Positions 6,225 through 13,236 of a stretch of 52,993 nucleotides of DNA are shown here, one piece after another; within the stretch, counting starts at the first letter, position 1; each line of letters begins with the position of its first letter. The position numbers were made by a program, and so were the translations under genes. Under the pieces are notes generated by a model. That model was given only the letters and a program-made list of their open reading frames with translations, had not been told where the DNA came from and searched no databases. Source of the DNA: a virus; IMG/VR virus record IMGVR_UViG_3300048834_000646, positions 1-52,993 of that record. One strand, given 5' to 3'.

Positions 6225-7212
6225 CGACACCGCCGCAGCTCCGCCGCCGAACAATCCGAGCGTCTACGTCATCGAGGAAGAGGCCCGCCGGCTGGATCTC
6301 CTGCTCGCCGAAAGCGACGGGGAGCTGACGCCGGAGATCGAGGCCTGGTGGGATCAGCACAAGCTGGAAGCCGCGAAGAAGGTCGACCGGATCAGCTCGG
6401 TGCACCGCCGCCTGTCGGCCGAGGTGGGCATGGTCGATGAGGAGATCACCCGGCTGAAGGGACTCAAGGTCGCGAAGCAGAACGCGATCGCCAGCGTGGA
6501 GGAGTTGGTCGACCGGCTCTTCACCGCGCTCGGCGTGTCGGAGATTTCCGGACCGACCGGCGGCACCTGGAAGCGCATCGGCAAGGGCGGCACGCGATCG
6601 ATGGACGGCTCCCGGCTCACCCTCGAGGCGCTGCAGCAGGTCGCGCCGCAGCTGATCGAGCATCCGGCCCCGACCACGCCGCCGGACCGACCGGACACCG
6701 CGCGCGCCCGGGAGATCATGGACGACGCCGCGCGGCGCTTTGCCGCCCGGATGGAAATGGAAGCGGCCAATCGGGGCGAGAAGAACGACTTCAACATCGA
6801 CGCCTATCGGCTGCTGCTCGTGGCGGAGCATATCCGCGAGGAGCGCGAGATGCGGGGAGAGGAGCTGGAGCGCGCGGCCGCGGCGGAGCGGGATCACCAC
6901 GCCTTCGAAGAGACGGTGGGCGAGGAGACGCGCCTGTGGCGCGTGGCGGCGATTGCGGCGATCCCCGGCGACTACGCCGAGGGCGAAGCGCAGCCCAGCC
7001 TGGTCGCGCTGCAGCGCGTGCGGCAGGCGGCCGATTTCGAGGCCGCGAGCGATTGGGAGCTGGTCGTGCACGTGACGCCGGCCGACAGCCCGGGCGACCT
7101 GCCGGCCGGCGCGCGGATCCTCGCGTCGATCGAGCCGCGGGGCTACACCGTCAAGCTCCGCACGCCCAGCCCGAAGCCGTCGAAGAAGCTGCTCGCGAAG
7201 GAGGCGTCCTGA
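6217..7212 (+). CDS. Siphovirus Gp157-like protein
   Basis: 331 residues. The N-terminal 135 resemble the phage Gp157 family: an acidic start (VIEEEARRLDLLLAES), a long coiled coil (EVGMVDEEITRLKGLKVAK) and a short beta end (GGTWKRIGKGG). The family is frequent in siphovirus early regions; its biochemical role is unsettled. The C-terminal half is a second helical region and a small beta-rich domain (GARILASIEPRGYTVKL) not seen in typical short members. Overlaps both neighbours by a few bases. Confidence 0.55.
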   Translation: MSSDTAAAPPPNNPSVYVIEEEARRLDLLLAESDGELTPEIEAWWDQHKLEAAKKVDRISSVHRRLSAEVGMVDEEITRLKGLKVAKQNAIASVEELVDRLFTALGVSEISGPTGGTWKRIGKGGTRSMDGSRLTLEALQQVAPQLIEHPAPTTPPDRPDTARAREIMDDAARRFAARMEMEAANRGEKNDFNIDAYRLLLVAEHIREEREMRGEELERAAAAERDHHAFEETVGEETRLWRVAAIAAIPGDYAEGEAQPSLVALQRVRQAADFEAASDWELVVHVTPADSPGDLPAGARILASIEPRGYTVKLRTPSPKPSKKLLAKEAS

Positions 7213-7514: not shown

Positions 7515-9140
7515 ATGACACAGAAGAGCGACGTAGCGATCGCACCGGCTTTGGCCGAAGTCCCGGCCCTCGCGGCGGAGTTGGAGCAGATCCCGATCGG
7601 CAACCTGAAGGAGTCCCCGCTCAATCCGCGCCAGACGTACGATCGCGCCGAGATGGCGCAGCTGGTGGAGAGCATCCGGACGCACGGCGTGCTCGAGCCG
7701 CTCCGCGCGCGGACGATGGGCGGCGGCCCGCACCTGCTGGTGAGCGGGCACCGCCGGTATCGCGCGGCGAAGGAAGCCGGTCTGTCGGTGGTCCCCGTCT
7801 TCCTCGGGAAGATGACGGACGCGCAGTACCTCGAGCTGCTCACCCTGGGCAACCTGCATCGGAAGGATCTGCATCCGCTCGAGGAGGCGCGCGGATTCGA
7901 GCTCCTGATCAAGGAGCTGCGCTACGACGTGCAGCGCATCGCGGAGCGCGTCGGCCATTCCACCACGCATGTCTACGACCGGCTCAAGCTGCTCAGGCTC
8001 ACGAAGCCCCTGCAGGATCTGTTTCAGGAGGGGCACCTGACGACGGCCCACGCGGTGATCCTCTCGCGCCTTGACGCGGCGAGCCAAGCGCGGGCGCTCG
8101 GCTCCGCGAAGGATCAGTGGCGTAGCTCCGCGATCTTCACCTCGGAGACGCTGCGCGGGCACGAGCCGCTGGCGCTCGAGTCGCGCGGCGCGGATCCGTG
8201 GCACGGCGTGAAGGCCGTCAGCGCGCGCGAGCTGCAGGCGTGGGTCGACAATCATGTGCACTTCAATCCGGCCGCGGAGGATCTCGCGAATCTCTTTCCC
8301 GAGACGCAGCGCGTCCTCGCGGCCGCGAGCACCGGCGACATGAAGGTCGTGCAGATCACGCACGAGCACTATGTGCAGCCCGACGCGCGGCAGGGCAAGA
8401 TCATCGGGCCGCGCTCCTGGAAGCGCGCGGATGGCCAGCTGACGTCGAAGGAGTGCGAGCATAGCGTCGTCGGCGTGATCGCGGCGGGCCCCGGCCGCGG
8501 GGAGGCATTCCGCGTCTGCATTGCGAAGAAGAGCTGCGCGATCCACTGGCGGCAGGAGAAGGCGGAGGCCGCCCGCCGGCAGGCCGATCGCGAGAAGCAC
8601 GGCGGGGCAACGGTCTCGCAGCGGGAGAAGGAGAAGGAGTCGCAGGAGCGTCAGCGCCGCGAGGCGCAGCGCGCCGCGGAGGAGCAGTATCGGAAGAGTC
8701 TGGAGCGGGCACGGCCTGCGATCGTCAAGGCGATCTATGACGTGATCGCGAAGGCCCCGGTCGGCATGACGAGCACAGCCGCGAAGCTCGTGCTGCAGCG
8801 CTGCTCCCATTACGGGGCCAACCGGCCGAAGCTCGCCAAGGCGGGACAGGGAGCCGACGATGTGGTGCGCCTTGCCGCGCTGCAGATCCTGCTCTCGGCC
8901 GCGAACAACTCGTGGTCGCTGCTCCGCGACGGCGGCAAGCAGCTAAAGGAATTTGGCATCGACGTGCGCGCGATCGCGGACGCGGTCACTCCCGCGCCGG
9001 CGCAGAAGGTGAAGGCCGCGAAGAAGGCGAAGCCGGGGGCCAAGGCGAGGCCGGGGGCCAAAGCGAAAAAGGCCGCGGCACCGGCACGCAAGAAGGCGGC
9101 GAAGAAGGCCGCGCCGAAGCGTGGGCGAGGTGCCCGGTGA
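7515..9140 (+). CDS. ParB-like protein with histone-H1-like tail
   Basis: 541 residues. Residues 20-200 contain the ParB/Spo0J N-terminal domain: NPRQTYD, then SGHRRYRAAKEAG (the arginine-rich CTP-binding motif), and a helix-turn-helix near 135-165 (RIAERVGHSTTHVYDRL). The middle holds a Cys-containing segment (near 315-345) and a long charged coiled coil (345-395). The last 45 residues are Lys/Ala/Pro-rich with an 18-bp DNA repeat, like bacterial histone-H1-like tails. No ParA gene is nearby, so plasmid-type partition is unlikely; DNA compaction, replication control or regulation is more plausible. The start has a ggagaag site. Confidence 0.85.
   Translation: MTQKSDVAIAPALAEVPALAAELEQIPIGNLKESPLNPRQTYDRAEMAQLVESIRTHGVLEPLRARTMGGGPHLLVSGHRRYRAAKEAGLSVVPVFLGKMTDAQYLELLTLGNLHRKDLHPLEEARGFELLIKELRYDVQRIAERVGHSTTHVYDRLKLLRLTKPLQDLFQEGHLTTAHAVILSRLDAASQARALGSAKDQWRSSAIFTSETLRGHEPLALESRGADPWHGVKAVSARELQAWVDNHVHFNPAAEDLANLFPETQRVLAAASTGDMKVVQITHEHYVQPDARQGKIIGPRSWKRADGQLTSKECEHSVVGVIAAGPGRGEAFRVCIAKKSCAIHWRQEKAEAARRQADREKHGGATVSQREKEKESQERQRREAQRAAEEQYRKSLERARPAIVKAIYDVIAKAPVGMTSTAAKLVLQRCSHYGANRPKLAKAGQGADDVVRLAALQILLSAANNSWSLLRDGGKQLKEFGIDVRAIADAVTPAPAQKVKAAKKAKPGAKARPGAKAKKAAAPARKKAAKKAAPKRGRGAR
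9024..9059 (+). repeat. 18-bp tandem repeat in the ParB tail
   Basis: Two 18-base units (9024-9041 and 9042-9059) differ at one position and encode the KAKPGA/KARPGA units of the basic tail. Confidence 0.75.
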
Positions 9141-9930: not shown

Positions 9931-10126
9931 AGAGGAGCGGATCCTGCGAATCAGCGAGGCCGCGGAAGACGCCTCGACCCTGAGCCACGGCCTCCTGATC
10001 GGCGGGATGCCGGTCGAGGAGGTCCGGCATCACACCTGGATGCTGATCTGGAATCGCCTGCGGGACTGCGGCGTGATCGCGCCGCTACCGCTGCCGCCAG
10101 AGGAGCCGAAGCAGCCATGGGATTAA
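9917..10126 (+). CDS. Small helical protein, function unknown
   Basis: 69 residues. The ATG at 9917 was chosen over an upstream TTG (9896) because a ggagagag site lies directly before it. Two helices (residues 4-30 and 37-53) and a Pro-rich acidic tail. Its end overlaps the nuclease gene by 10 bases. Confidence 0.6.
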   Translation: MALSKEERILRISEAAEDASTLSHGLLIGGMPVEEVRHHTWMLIWNRLRDCGVIAPLPLPPEEPKQPWD

Positions 10127-10671
10127 CCGAGGGGCGGATCCGGATCCCGAAGTGGGGCGACGCCAAGGAGTCCGAGCACCAACGCTGGTGCGTCGCGCTG
10201 CTGGTGGCGCTCGGCTTCGAGTCCCCGATCTATGTGACCGATCAGGGCGTCCGCGTGCTGAAGCATGAGGACGGCTCCGTCAGCGGCGATCCGCGCGGCA
10301 CGCGCACCACGGCCGGCCAGCCCGATATCAGCTATGGCTTCCACCTCGGGCGCGGCCTCCTCGTGATCTTCGAGGTCAAGCCGCCGAAGCGGGCCCGGGC
10401 GCTGGCCGGTCGCCTCGAGCGCGGCGCGAAGAACAAGGCGCAGCTGAAGGAGTATCGCAACGCCGGCGCGCAGCAGCACTTCGGCGCGCTCGCGCGCCGG
10501 CTGGGCGAGGCCGTCCCCGCGATCCGGTATGGGTACGGCTCGCTGCCCGAGCTGCTGGCCTCCCTGCTCGGCCCCTTCACGGTGCCCGAGCTCACCGCGG
10601 CGCTCAAGCGGTGCCCGCTCCCCTTCGATCTGCACGCGGAGGCCTTGGCCCTCATCAGCCGGTCCAAGTAG
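10117..10671 (+). CDS. VRR-NUC-type PD-(D/E)xK nuclease
   Basis: 184 residues. The core motif reads GQPDIS (D70), then LLVIFEVKPP (E86, K88), with an upstream ESEHQ helix (E18/E20) and a downstream QLKEYRNAGAQQHF helix. This order matches VRR-NUC nucleases related to Holliday-junction resolvases. It likely cuts branched or flap DNA during phage recombination or packaging. Placed beside the wHTH gene and upstream of the modification-like cassette. Catalytic residues are complete. Confidence 0.75.
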   Translation: MGLTEGRIRIPKWGDAKESEHQRWCVALLVALGFESPIYVTDQGVRVLKHEDGSVSGDPRGTRTTAGQPDISYGFHLGRGLLVIFEVKPPKRARALAGRLERGAKNKAQLKEYRNAGAQQHFGALARRLGEAVPAIRYGYGSLPELLASLLGPFTVPELTAALKRCPLPFDLHAEALALISRSK

Positions 10672-10700: not shown

Positions 10701-11360
10701 ATGTCTCCCGCCGCACCACGCCAGAAGAAAGCCCCTGCCCCGCCGGCCGTCAGTCCCGAGGCCGCGGCGGCGGGGATCCCCGACGCCCTCAAGGGCCGGC
10801 GGATGGCCTTCGAGATGATGAGCCCGAAGCGCTGCAAGCCCAACCCTGACAATCCGCGCCGGATCGATGATGACAACCGGGAGCGCCTGAAGGCGGGGAT
10901 CACGCAGCTCGGCTGGGTGGACCCGATCATCCTGCGCGCCGAGAGCCGCGTGATCCTCGGCGGCCATCAGCGGCACGATATCGCGATGGAGCTCAAGTTC
11001 CCGAAGGTGCCGGTCGTCCTGGTGTACGGGCTCAGCGACTCGGAGGCCGAAGCGGTCACGATCATTCTGAACAACCCCGCCGCGCAGGGCGAGTGGGATC
11101 TCGACAAGCTCACCGCGTCCCTCGGCCGGCTCCGGGATCAGGAGTTCCCCCTCGAGCTGACCGGCTTCGATCGCGCGGCCGCGGACAAGATGCTGGCCGG
11201 CGTGCCGGCGCTGGCACCACCGACCTCCCTCGATCCCGGCGACGGCCGGTACCGCGAGCAATACGGCGTGATCGTGATCTGCGCCGACGCGACCGAGCAG
11301 GAGGCGATCTACAACCGCCTGCAGCAGGACGGCCTCGACTGCCGCGTGGTGGTGACCTGA
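10701..11360 (+). CDS. ParB N-domain protein of a modification-like cassette
   Basis: 219 residues. Residues 35-140 form a ParB-type N-terminal domain: NPDNPRRIDDDN, GITQLGWVDPIIL, then VILGGHQRHDIAMEL, the analogue of the GxRR nucleotide-binding motif. It lacks the helix-turn-helix of full ParB. Residues 170-219 form a small separate unit (YGVIVICADATEQEAIY...CRVVVT), predicted beta-alpha-beta. This pairing is familiar from phage proteins next to DNA-modifying enzymes. The stop overlaps the next start (TGATG), so it is coupled to the ABC/GNAT fusion. A role in DNA binding or nucleotide-dependent control of that enzyme is inferred. Confidence 0.75.
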   Translation: MSPAAPRQKKAPAPPAVSPEAAAAGIPDALKGRRMAFEMMSPKRCKPNPDNPRRIDDDNRERLKAGITQLGWVDPIILRAESRVILGGHQRHDIAMELKFPKVPVVLVYGLSDSEAEAVTIILNNPAAQGEWDLDKLTASLGRLRDQEFPLELTGFDRAAADKMLAGVPALAPPTSLDPGDGRYREQYGVIVICADATEQEAIYNRLQQDGLDCRVVVT

Positions 11361-12514
11361 TGCGCGTCACCGTCCGCAATCGCACCAGCGACTTCAACAG
11401 CTACCGCGCGGCGCGCGTCAAGTCGCTCTTCAACGCCGAGAACGGATGCAACTTCGATCTGGAGGCCGAGCTGCCGATCGAGGAGTCGGACTGGCGCGTC
11501 GGCGCGATCGTGGGACCGTCCGGATCCGGCAAGAGCTCGCTCGGCCGTTTGCTCTGGGGGCCCGAGGCGATGTGGTCGCCGGCGTGGCCGTCCGATCAGC
11601 CGATCATCGACGCGATCGCGCCCGGGGCGGACTTCAACGACGTCACCGCCTCGCTGGCGGCCGTGGGCCTCGGCTCGGTGCCGGCGTGGCTCCGGCCCTT
11701 CCCGATCCTCAGCAACGGGGAGCAGTTTCGCGCGAACCTGGCGCGCGTGATCTGCGACGCGCCGGAGCGCGTCGTCATCGATGAGTTTACCTCGGTGGTC
11801 GATCGGCAAATCGCCAAGTTCGGCGCGCTCGCGTTTCAGAAGGCGTGGCGGCGTACGCGTGGGCAGGCCGTGCTCCTGAGCTGTCACTACGACGTGCTCG
11901 AGTGGCTGGAGCCTGACTGGATCTTTGACACCGCGACCGGCCTCTTCGATAGGGGGTCACTTCGGCGGCCCCGCTTTGATCTCGAAATTTTCGAGACGGA
12001 CTGGCGATATTGGCCCCATTTTGAGCCGCATTACTATTTGACACTGCCGAAGATGATCGCGGCGCGCTGCTATGTGGCCACGATCGACGGCGAGCTCGTG
12101 GCGCACGTCGCGGTCGGTACGAAAAACGTCGGCAAGATGGTCGAGGCGCGCGCCTCGCGGATGGTGGTGATGCCGGAGTTTCAAGGAGCCGGGATCGGGA
12201 TCCGATTCCTGAACGCAGTCTGCGAGCTGCAGCTGCGCGGCGAGGGGAGACTTCCCGGCCGGAAGGTCACGACCATTTTTCACACCTCGCACCCCGGCCT
12301 CTGCGCAGGGCTGCGCCGCGATCGCAAGTGGGCGCAAACGAGCGCGGTCCTCCTCGGCACCAACAAGGCGAAGTCCCGCGCCAGCATCAGCAAGTCGCAG
12401 AAGGTCACGCGACCAGGCGCGCCGATCAATGCAGGGTACGGAGGACACTTCCGCGCGGTGCAGGGATTCCGCTACCTCGGTGCCGAGCGCGCCTGCGCGC
12501 CGCAGGGATCGTGA
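11360..12514 (+). CDS. ABC-ATPase fused to GNAT (Mom-like) acyltransferase
   Basis: 384 residues, two domains. Residues 20-195 are a soluble ABC ATPase: Walker A GPSGSGKS (52-59), signature LSNGEQ (117-122), Walker B VVIDE (138-142), D-loop near D148 and switch His176. No membrane segment or transporter partner is present. Residues 205-384 are a GNAT-type acyltransferase: RMVVMPEFQGAGIG (267-280) is the acyl-CoA-binding motif A, with SHPGL and RAVQGFRYLG later. The GNAT-fold Mom protein of phage Mu modifies adenine in DNA, so this may be an ATP-driven nucleobase modification enzyme. Overlapped by ParB-like and formyltransferase genes. Substrate unknown. Confidence 0.8.
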   Translation: MRVTVRNRTSDFNSYRAARVKSLFNAENGCNFDLEAELPIEESDWRVGAIVGPSGSGKSSLGRLLWGPEAMWSPAWPSDQPIIDAIAPGADFNDVTASLAAVGLGSVPAWLRPFPILSNGEQFRANLARVICDAPERVVIDEFTSVVDRQIAKFGALAFQKAWRRTRGQAVLLSCHYDVLEWLEPDWIFDTATGLFDRGSLRRPRFDLEIFETDWRYWPHFEPHYYLTLPKMIAARCYVATIDGELVAHVAVGTKNVGKMVEARASRMVVMPEFQGAGIGIRFLNAVCELQLRGEGRLPGRKVTTIFHTSHPGLCAGLRRDRKWAQTSAVLLGTNKAKSRASISKSQKVTRPGAPINAGYGGHFRAVQGFRYLGAERACAPQGS

Positions 12515-13236
12515 CCACGACCGCACCGCTTCGCGTCTACCTCTGCGGCCAGCAGGACTTCGGCCGGCGCACGCTGCAGCTGCTCCTCGCCATGCCGGGG
12601 ATCGAGGTCGTCGGCGTCAGCGCGCCGGAAGTCTCGCGCGCCTCGGGGCGGATCGATCGACTCTGGGATCTCGCGCATGAGCATGCGCTGCCCTGCCTCG
12701 CCGCGGGCCAGCTGCGTGCCGAGCTGCTGCCGGCGCGCACCGACCTGATCATCGCCGCCCACTCGCACGATTACCTCGGCCGCCTGACGCGCGCGCGCGC
12801 GACCCTGGGCGCGATCGGGTATCACCCCTCGCTGCTGCCTCGCCATCGCGGGCGGGATGCTGTTCGCTGGACGCTGAAGATGCGCGACCCGATCGCCGGC
12901 GGCACCGTCTTCTGGCTCGGCGACGCGATCGACGCCGGGGATATCGCGGCGCAGGACTGGTGCTGGGTGCTCCCGGACGACACGCCGGCCACGCTCTGGC
13001 GGCAGCGCCTTGCGCCGATGGGCCTGCGGCTCTTCGCTCGAGTCCTCGCGGACCTACAAGCCCGCCAGATCATCCGGGAGCCGCAGGAGGAGGCCGTGGC
13101 CACCTGGGAGCCCTCGTGGGGCCGGGAGCCCCTCTTCCGGCCGGAGTTGCCCCTCCTCGGGGACGGCGGCCCGGGCCGTCTGGCGGGCTGGACCGTCCGC
13201 CGGGGGGAGGGGGGCTGGCGCGGACCGGTGCCTTAG
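12511..13236 (+). CDS. Formyltransferase-like protein
   Basis: 241 residues from GTG overlapping the previous stop (GTGA). The N-terminal part matches the Fmt/PurN fold: VYLCGQQDFGRRTLQ start, LIIAAHSH, then YHPSLLPRHRG and DAIDAGDI. The catalytic triad of PurN/Fmt is Asn-His-Asp; His105 and Asp141 are present, but the Asn position is Gly103. The typical Fmt C-terminal tRNA-binding domain is missing. It may transfer a one-carbon or related group to a small molecule or to DNA in the same pathway as the ABC/GNAT protein. Last gene of the operon. Confidence 0.75.
   Translation: MTTTAPLRVYLCGQQDFGRRTLQLLLAMPGIEVVGVSAPEVSRASGRIDRLWDLAHEHALPCLAAGQLRAELLPARTDLIIAAHSHDYLGRLTRARATLGAIGYHPSLLPRHRGRDAVRWTLKMRDPIAGGTVFWLGDAIDAGDIAAQDWCWVLPDDTPATLWRQRLAPMGLRLFARVLADLQARQIIREPQEEAVATWEPSWGREPLFRPELPLLGDGGPGRLAGWTVRRGEGGWRGPVP

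Follow-up and report, generated by a model that had tools for sequence, protein, structure and literature searches.

A widespread phage cassette of an ABC ATPase-GNAT fusion, a conserved tail domain and a formyltransferase-like protein as a probable DNA-base acylation module

The three-gene cassette and its distribution

We analyzed a 52,993-bp virus contig, IMG/VR record IMGVR_UViG_3300048834_000646 (the whole contig is hereafter called the window), which carries at 10701-13236 three consecutive open reading frames (ORFs), all on the + strand, encoding a ParB-type protein (P0002), an ABC ATPase fused to a GNAT acyltransferase (P0001, hereafter ABC-GNAT), and a formyltransferase-like protein (P0003). 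The cassette is a real and widespread phage module, and we conclude that it probably acylates DNA bases. An initial annotation of the sequence had described the three genes as overlapping at their starts and stops, which can be read directly in the letters: TGATG at 11358-11362 joins the ParB stop to the ABC-GNAT ATG with an overlap of 1 nt, and GTGA at 12511-12514 joins the ABC-GNAT stop to the formyltransferase GTG with an overlap of 4 nt. The features are as follows.

10701..11360, + strand: ParB/Srx-domain protein with C-terminal tail domain (P0002, 219 aa); PF02195 ParB_N 7.6e-07, residues 37-124; phrog_620/498 ~1e-30
11250..11357, + strand: beta-alpha-beta tail domain (phrog_28816, 1.2e-11), near-universal partner of ABC-GNAT
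11360..11965, + strand: ABC ATPase domain of P0001, residues 1-202; motifs, AlphaFold model m59f46a813ca9, ABC fold matches
11966..12511, + strand: GNAT acyltransferase domain of P0001, residues 203-384; Acetyltransf_7 7.2e-07, model me609ad65292a
12511..13236, + strand: formyltransferase-like protein (P0003, 241 aa; domain at about residues 7-202); PF00551 9e-17, phrog_9240 6.5e-53

The reading of P0001 (384 aa) as an ABC ATPase plus a GNAT is secure, since invariant motifs are joined by confident predicted models with fold matches. Both ABC_tran and Acetyltransf_7/1 exceed their Pfam cut-offs. The ATPase motifs, annotated as intact, are indeed all in place, with Walker A GPSGSGKS (52-59), signature LSNGE (117-121), Walker B RVVIDE (137-142), D-loop SVVD (145-148) and H-switch SCH (174-176), and an alignment of 45 relatives keeps G52, S54, G55, G57, K58, S118, G120, D141, E142, D148 and H176 invariant. 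The GNAT domain carries the acyl-CoA loop QGAGIG (CoA, coenzyme A) and the family motifs H-x-Y-L, TSHP and GYGGH; Q275, G276, G278 and G280 of the loop are invariant, as are Y226, R267, P272 and W324, while H224 and the TSHP motif (309-312) are nearly so. An AlphaFold model built from the alignment of 45 relatives reached a mean confidence score (pLDDT) of 86.9, and its residues 1-202 resembled ABC ATPases in the PDB with Z up to 15.5. As the fold search with the whole protein returned mainly ABC ATPases and gave no information on the GNAT part, we modeled that part alone (112 sequences), which gave a pLDDT of 90.1 and matches to acetyl-CoA-dependent GNATs in both the fold search and Foldseek (for the GNAT 1y9k, Z 13.7 and a root-mean-square deviation of 3.2 A over 137 residues). 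Model and fold matches thereby bore out the GNAT fold that had been claimed for the C-terminal domain, rather than a different fold.

The full-length match of P0001 to phrog_11143, a family of unknown function (4e-146), together with its many relatives in viral, phage and prokaryotic sequences, shows that the arrangement is not due to chance. The searches located relatives in 143 viral-contig stretches, 51 phage records and 485 stretches of prokaryotic genomes; many of the genomic ones are evident prophages as judged by neighboring genes. Among the carriers are phages that infect Gordonia (such as Axumite and Mariokart), Streptococcus, Lactococcus, Oenococcus, Pseudomonas, Porphyromonas and other hosts. 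These relatives form two groups, the window's clade at ~55-69% identity and a distant clade at ~35%, which are divided by the deepest midpoint split of a 135-sequence tree.

Several carriers depart from the common layout. Phages of Streptococcus, Lactococcus, Oenococcus and Thomasclavelia encode the ABC and GNAT halves in different frames, the GNAT always in the -1 frame with an overlap of 97-106 nt and no evident start codon (6585-6687 in both L083 and L084, 3555-3657 in L087, 3531-3636 in L088, and 3309-3405 in L089); a programmed -1 frameshift is possible, and no canonical slippery heptamer is conserved among these split Firmicutes versions. The gene of Tenacibaculum phage pT24 has an in-frame TGA within the GNAT domain (L092:4655-4657) and is annotated as two genes, and the gene upstream of it showed no tail domain at its end. 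In Streptococcus phage MismyG, an ASCH-domain gene follows the GNAT (L083:7123-7491); one ASCH protein is an N4-acetylcytidine hydrolase, and this neighbor is a possible hint at N4-acetyl-C chemistry. A planctomycete genome, LBMAG bin5, holds two similar cassette copies on different contigs (L162, L163).

The tail domain and the Com slot

Across loci, the gene that ends at the ABC-GNAT start closes with the same short stretch of ~38 residues, a tail domain whose sequence pattern suggests beta-alpha-beta. Its profile was found immediately upstream of ABC-GNAT in 31/31 close-clade viral, 56/59 distant-clade and 79/80 genomic loci (166/170 altogether), the overlap between the two genes usually being 4 nt in the close clade and 22 nt in the distant one. 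In a reverse test, a tblastn search of 50,697 phage records with two tail consensus sequences matched 24 records, all belonging to the 51 ABC-GNAT carriers, and the tail occurs nowhere else in this phage collection; a genome sample of 369 relatives contained one carrier and is too sparse to inform the test. Because the tail accompanies ABC-GNAT in 166 of the 170 loci and all 24 tail-bearing phage records carry ABC-GNAT, the tail is very probably a subunit or dedicated cofactor of the enzyme.

The ParB domain, by contrast with the obligatory tail, is an optional attachment. A small stand-alone tail gene is present in 15 close-clade viral and 53 genomic loci, while other loci, the window included, have the tail at the C-terminal end of a ParB-domain protein; in the distant clade it is usually fused to ParB and stands alone in 0/59 loci. 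Within the 135-sequence tree, the stand-alone and ParB-fused states interchanged ~13 times. The ParB N-domain protein that the initial annotation counted as a cassette member is thus present, with ParB_N above its cut-off, and it is the tail that makes the constant partner; a role of ParB as an essential partner was rejected, since stand-alone tails take its place. Nor does P0002 qualify as a ParB partition protein, as it has ParB_N only, gave no HTH_ParB match in Pfam, and scored 25.0 bits against TIGR00180 with a cut-off of 58.45. A second, larger ParB (541 aa; ParB_N plus HTH_ParB) lies at 7515-9140 of the window, 1.5 kb upstream of the cassette and distinct from the cassette ParB. The stand-alone tail of Porphyromonas phages (L090:5876-6004) is labeled 'acr candidate' in GenBank, an anti-CRISPR label that appears doubtful because homology identifies this tail as an ABC-GNAT partner.

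Strong contextual evidence for DNA as the substrate comes from Mu-like relatives of the cassette. In Pseudomonas phage Komp_PAO1_1, a tail-fiber assembly gene is followed by the tail, ABC-GNAT and formyltransferase genes, which is the position of com-mom in Mu. Upstream of prophage cassettes with a stand-alone tail we found baseplate and tail-fiber families and, repeatedly, phrog_6417 ('translational regulator'), which Mu Com itself matches; upstream proteins also matched the PHROG 'gpCom control of modification' (best 1.3e-08) and have the Com zinc-finger pattern. Upon scanning upstream ORFs with Mu Com as the sole query, a Com-like ORF was detected directly upstream in Komp_PAO1_1 and in 35/54 genomic loci with a stand-alone tail, compared to 0/23 genomic ParB-type loci, 0/70 other viral loci and 0/2662 control ORFs. 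The com gene overlaps the start of the tail ORF in 30/36 loci, an arrangement shared with Mu, where the com-mom overlap is 50 nt, and therefore Com seems to control the tail gene as the first cistron.

We inspected what follows Com in 13 other phages, identifying the genes of Mcat3 and PAN70 from their sequence. The next gene encodes a Mom protein in Mu, JD024 and PAN70 and a DNA methyltransferase in Curvibacter TJ1, Burkholderia Mana, AP3 and KS5, Pseudomonas Bise, Phipami28 and B3, Stenotrophomonas Smp131, Escherichia Chuche and Moraxella Mcat3; in two further prophages (L210, L211), D12-type adenine methylases, recognized by sequence, lie behind Com. An Anaerostipes match to Com, at E 0.1, was too weak and was left out of this survey. 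That relatives of the cassette occupy a slot held in the 13 other phages by Mom or a DNA methyltransferase supports modification of DNA by the cassette, and it is the strongest evidence for it, being independent of domain analogy. Two loci deserve separate mention. One prophage has a DNA methyltransferase gene between Com and the tail-ABC-GNAT cassette (L177:4911-5762), so that two DNA-modification genes seem to be stacked there, and a Com-like gene in Pseudomonas sp. BGI-2 (L208:1501-1686) has no recognizable modification gene behind it and is possibly a decayed slot.

ParB-type cassettes often lie just before the terminase genes, as in Gordonia Axumite, Streptococcus, Lactococcus P335 and Leptospira LE3 phages and likewise in several viral contigs and prophages. 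Such adjacency would suit modification shortly before packaging, position alone being weak evidence. The window encodes the small and large terminase subunits, portal, head morphogenesis and major head proteins at 26.2-34.4 kb, and its virus is therefore a tailed phage. Immediately 5' of the cassette, the gene at 10117-10671 contains GQPDI...FEVK, a pattern that hints at a PD-(D/E)XK (VRR-NUC-like) nuclease, and it had no match in Pfam or PHROG.

The formyltransferase-like protein, proposed mechanism and alternatives

The formyltransferase is restricted to the window's clade. It lies directly downstream of ABC-GNAT in 20/29 intact close-clade viral loci, 66/80 genomic loci and 0/59 distant loci, its start mostly overlapping the ABC-GNAT stop by a few nt. 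The order of the three genes is conserved in part across phages: tail and ABC-GNAT are near-constant, the formyltransferase is confined to one clade, and ParB is optional. Lactococcus phage P335 is one of the carriers with no formyltransferase. Some close-clade gut phages lacking the enzyme have in its place an ORF of 57-73 aa (MKQIKTVI...; L015:7620-7829, L017, L019, L021-L023, L036), which gave no significant Pfam match.

P0003 was annotated as a formyltransferase lacking the tRNA-binding domain, and this description holds, with a match to PF00551 and an alignment to TIGR00460 that stops at position 203 of 315. A full-length Fmt was rejected (53.5 bits against a cut-off of 201.5, covering profile positions 2-203), as was PurN (TIGR00639, 37.2 bits against 150.1, with the catalytic Asn lost). 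The nearest solved chain is the hydrolase domain of 10-formyl-tetrahydrofolate (10-formyl-THF) dehydrogenase (2bw0, 5.9e-23), ahead of Fmt (7e-13), ArnA (1.6e-07) and PurN (1.5e-05). Among 83 sequences of these formyltransferases, His105 is conserved in 98% and Asp141 in 100%, while the position of the catalytic Asn is never Asn (Gly 66, Ile 8, Ser 4, Val 3, Ala 1, gap 1; Gly in P0003). 10-Formyl-THF dehydrogenase likewise lacks this Asn, and the whole enzyme passes its formyl group to a 4'-phosphopantetheine thiol.

We propose that the ABC domain, which by analogy with soluble ABC ATPases may form an ATP-driven dimer, would together with the tail subunit bind or deform DNA and thereby expose an exocyclic amino group (N6 of A or N4 of C) to the fused GNAT, which would then acylate it from an acyl-CoA donor. 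The window phage carries the tail on its ParB-domain protein, which may assist in loading the complex onto DNA or in directing it there; Mu-like phages have a stand-alone tail gene, and their operon would be under Com control. The one-carbon enzyme added in the window's clade would most likely supply formyl, whether it charges CoA or formylates a group that the GNAT has installed. CoA thioesters are the donors that GNAT enzymes use, which makes formyl-CoA supply an obvious hypothesis for the formyltransferase; its main alternative would be formylation of an installed glycyl-type amine. In its most explicit version, the formyltransferase would charge CoA, whose 4'-phosphopantetheine thiol resembles the formyl acceptor of 10-formyl-THF dehydrogenase, with formyl from 10-formyl-THF, and ATP-driven ABC-GNAT plus tail would move the formyl to a DNA base amine, yielding N-formylated or formyl-glycylated bases; we regard this specific chemistry as a long shot, and to our knowledge such bases have not been described before. 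The outcome would be a small mark that may shield phage DNA from host nucleases.

Acylation of a DNA base by such a protein has been predicted before: as restated in PMC7824862, a GNAT coupled with an ABC ATPase was predicted (Iyer et al. 2013) to make an uncharacterized DNA-base acyl modification, with phage pT24 as the example. Literature searches on phage formyltransferase with GNAT, COG2401, GNAT DNA hypermodification and Gordonia phage modification found nothing. The proposal of a DNA modification system made in the initial annotation is thus strengthened by this published prediction and by the Com-slot context, while its Mom-like label for the GNAT found no sequence support, and the base, the acyl group, the role of the formyltransferase and the evasion of restriction are still put forward conditionally. 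The Mom family PF25680 reported neither P0001 nor its GNAT domain at E up to 1 (Mu Mom scores 2.5e-75), and a profile-profile comparison of the GNAT with Mom (hhalign) gave a probability of 0.1%, so that recognizable membership in the Mom family was rejected; the 50 matches listed for the GNAT model did not include the Mom structure 8bv8, an absence that proves nothing.

A number of observations weigh against modification of DNA by the cassette. At the level of sequence, the GNAT of P0001 has no detectable link to Mom. Its best structural matches are protein and small-molecule acetyltransferases, and proteins or small molecules are the substrates of most GNAT enzymes. With Mu Com as the query, no Com was found at the window cassette, which moreover lies ~13 kb before the terminase genes rather than adjoining them. 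A literature search for an experimental, biochemical or mass-spectrometry test of the ABC-GNAT prediction found none.

The structural matches would suit acylation of RNA or of a host protein (tRNA, ribosome or RNA polymerase), in the manner of TmcA/NAT10 on RNA or the phage GNAT Rac on RNA polymerase, with the formyltransferase acting on the same target. PMC7824862 cites phage GNATs known to acetylate the RNA polymerase of the host, and the GNAT profile weakly matched RNA cytidine acetyltransferase at E 0.02; this match is, however, not significant, other GNATs score similarly, and we use it as an analogy only. As the cassette has no RNA-binding domain, its formyltransferase lacks the tRNA-binding domain, and the Com slot otherwise holds only Mom and DNA methyltransferases, we consider an RNA or protein target unlikely. 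Less probable still is a toxin-antitoxin or anti-host module in which the small tail protein restrains a GNAT toxin that acylates aminoacyl-tRNA: GNAT toxins are an established class and a small gene directly upstream with a 4-nt overlap fits the layout, yet the tail never stands alone in the distant clade, the GNAT shares its polypeptide with an intact ABC ATPase and is followed by a formyltransferase in one clade, and Mu-like relatives sit in a Com-regulated slot. An auxiliary metabolic role, in which the formyltransferase would be a phage PurN-like purine enzyme beside an unrelated acetyltransferase, agrees with the annotation as phosphoribosylglycinamide formyltransferase in PHROGs and Komp_PAO1_1 and is about as improbable, given the failed PurN assignment, the position immediately behind ABC-GNAT in 86 loci, its absence from the distant clade, and the presence of ABC-GNAT in 12 of the 13 phage records with a similar formyltransferase.

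Overall, DNA-base acylation remains the reading that we prefer. Phage DNA hypermodifications are a main route around restriction and a source of new enzymes, and if the proposal is true, an ABC ATPase that drives base acylation and a one-carbon enzyme that feeds a DNA mark would both be new biochemistry. Several carriers of the cassette are in culture, where the prediction is testable, and the tail domain and the Com slot offer direct handles for reconstitution and genetics.

Relation to known systems

The Mu com-mom operon (Mom, PF25680/phrog_1384; Com, phrog_13819) resembles the cassette in having a GNAT-fold enzyme and, for the Mu-like relatives, in sharing the slot after the tail-fiber genes, behind a Com-like zinc-finger gene that overlaps the next one. 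The cassette differs from it in matching no Mom profile and in possessing a fused ABC ATPase, a separate tail subunit and an added formyltransferase, and the window copy has no Com. TmcA/NAT10 RNA cytidine acetyltransferases operate similarly on paper, one polypeptide uniting an NTPase module with a GNAT, whereas their NTPase is of the helicase type rather than ABC and their substrate is RNA. Kinship of P0003 to the 10-formyl-THF dehydrogenase hydrolase domain, as judged by sequence, is at the domain level only: YHPSLLPRHRG, VLPDDT and the His and Asp are kept and the Asn is replaced, whereas P0003 stands alone with no carrier or dehydrogenase domain, and most phage members have Gly at the Asn position where the dehydrogenase has Ile.

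Closest is the system predicted by Iyer et al. in 2013. Its combination of an ABC ATPase and a GNAT in a phage is what the domains and models of P0001 show, and the pT24 protein is a P0001 homolog (tblastn 1e-34) with the same domain order. The core idea that ABC-GNAT acylates a DNA base is hence already published; judged against the restatement in PMC7824862, which gives ABC plus GNAT only, the present analysis adds the tail domain as a probable subunit, the Com slot, the ParB fusion, and the clade-specific one-carbon enzyme.

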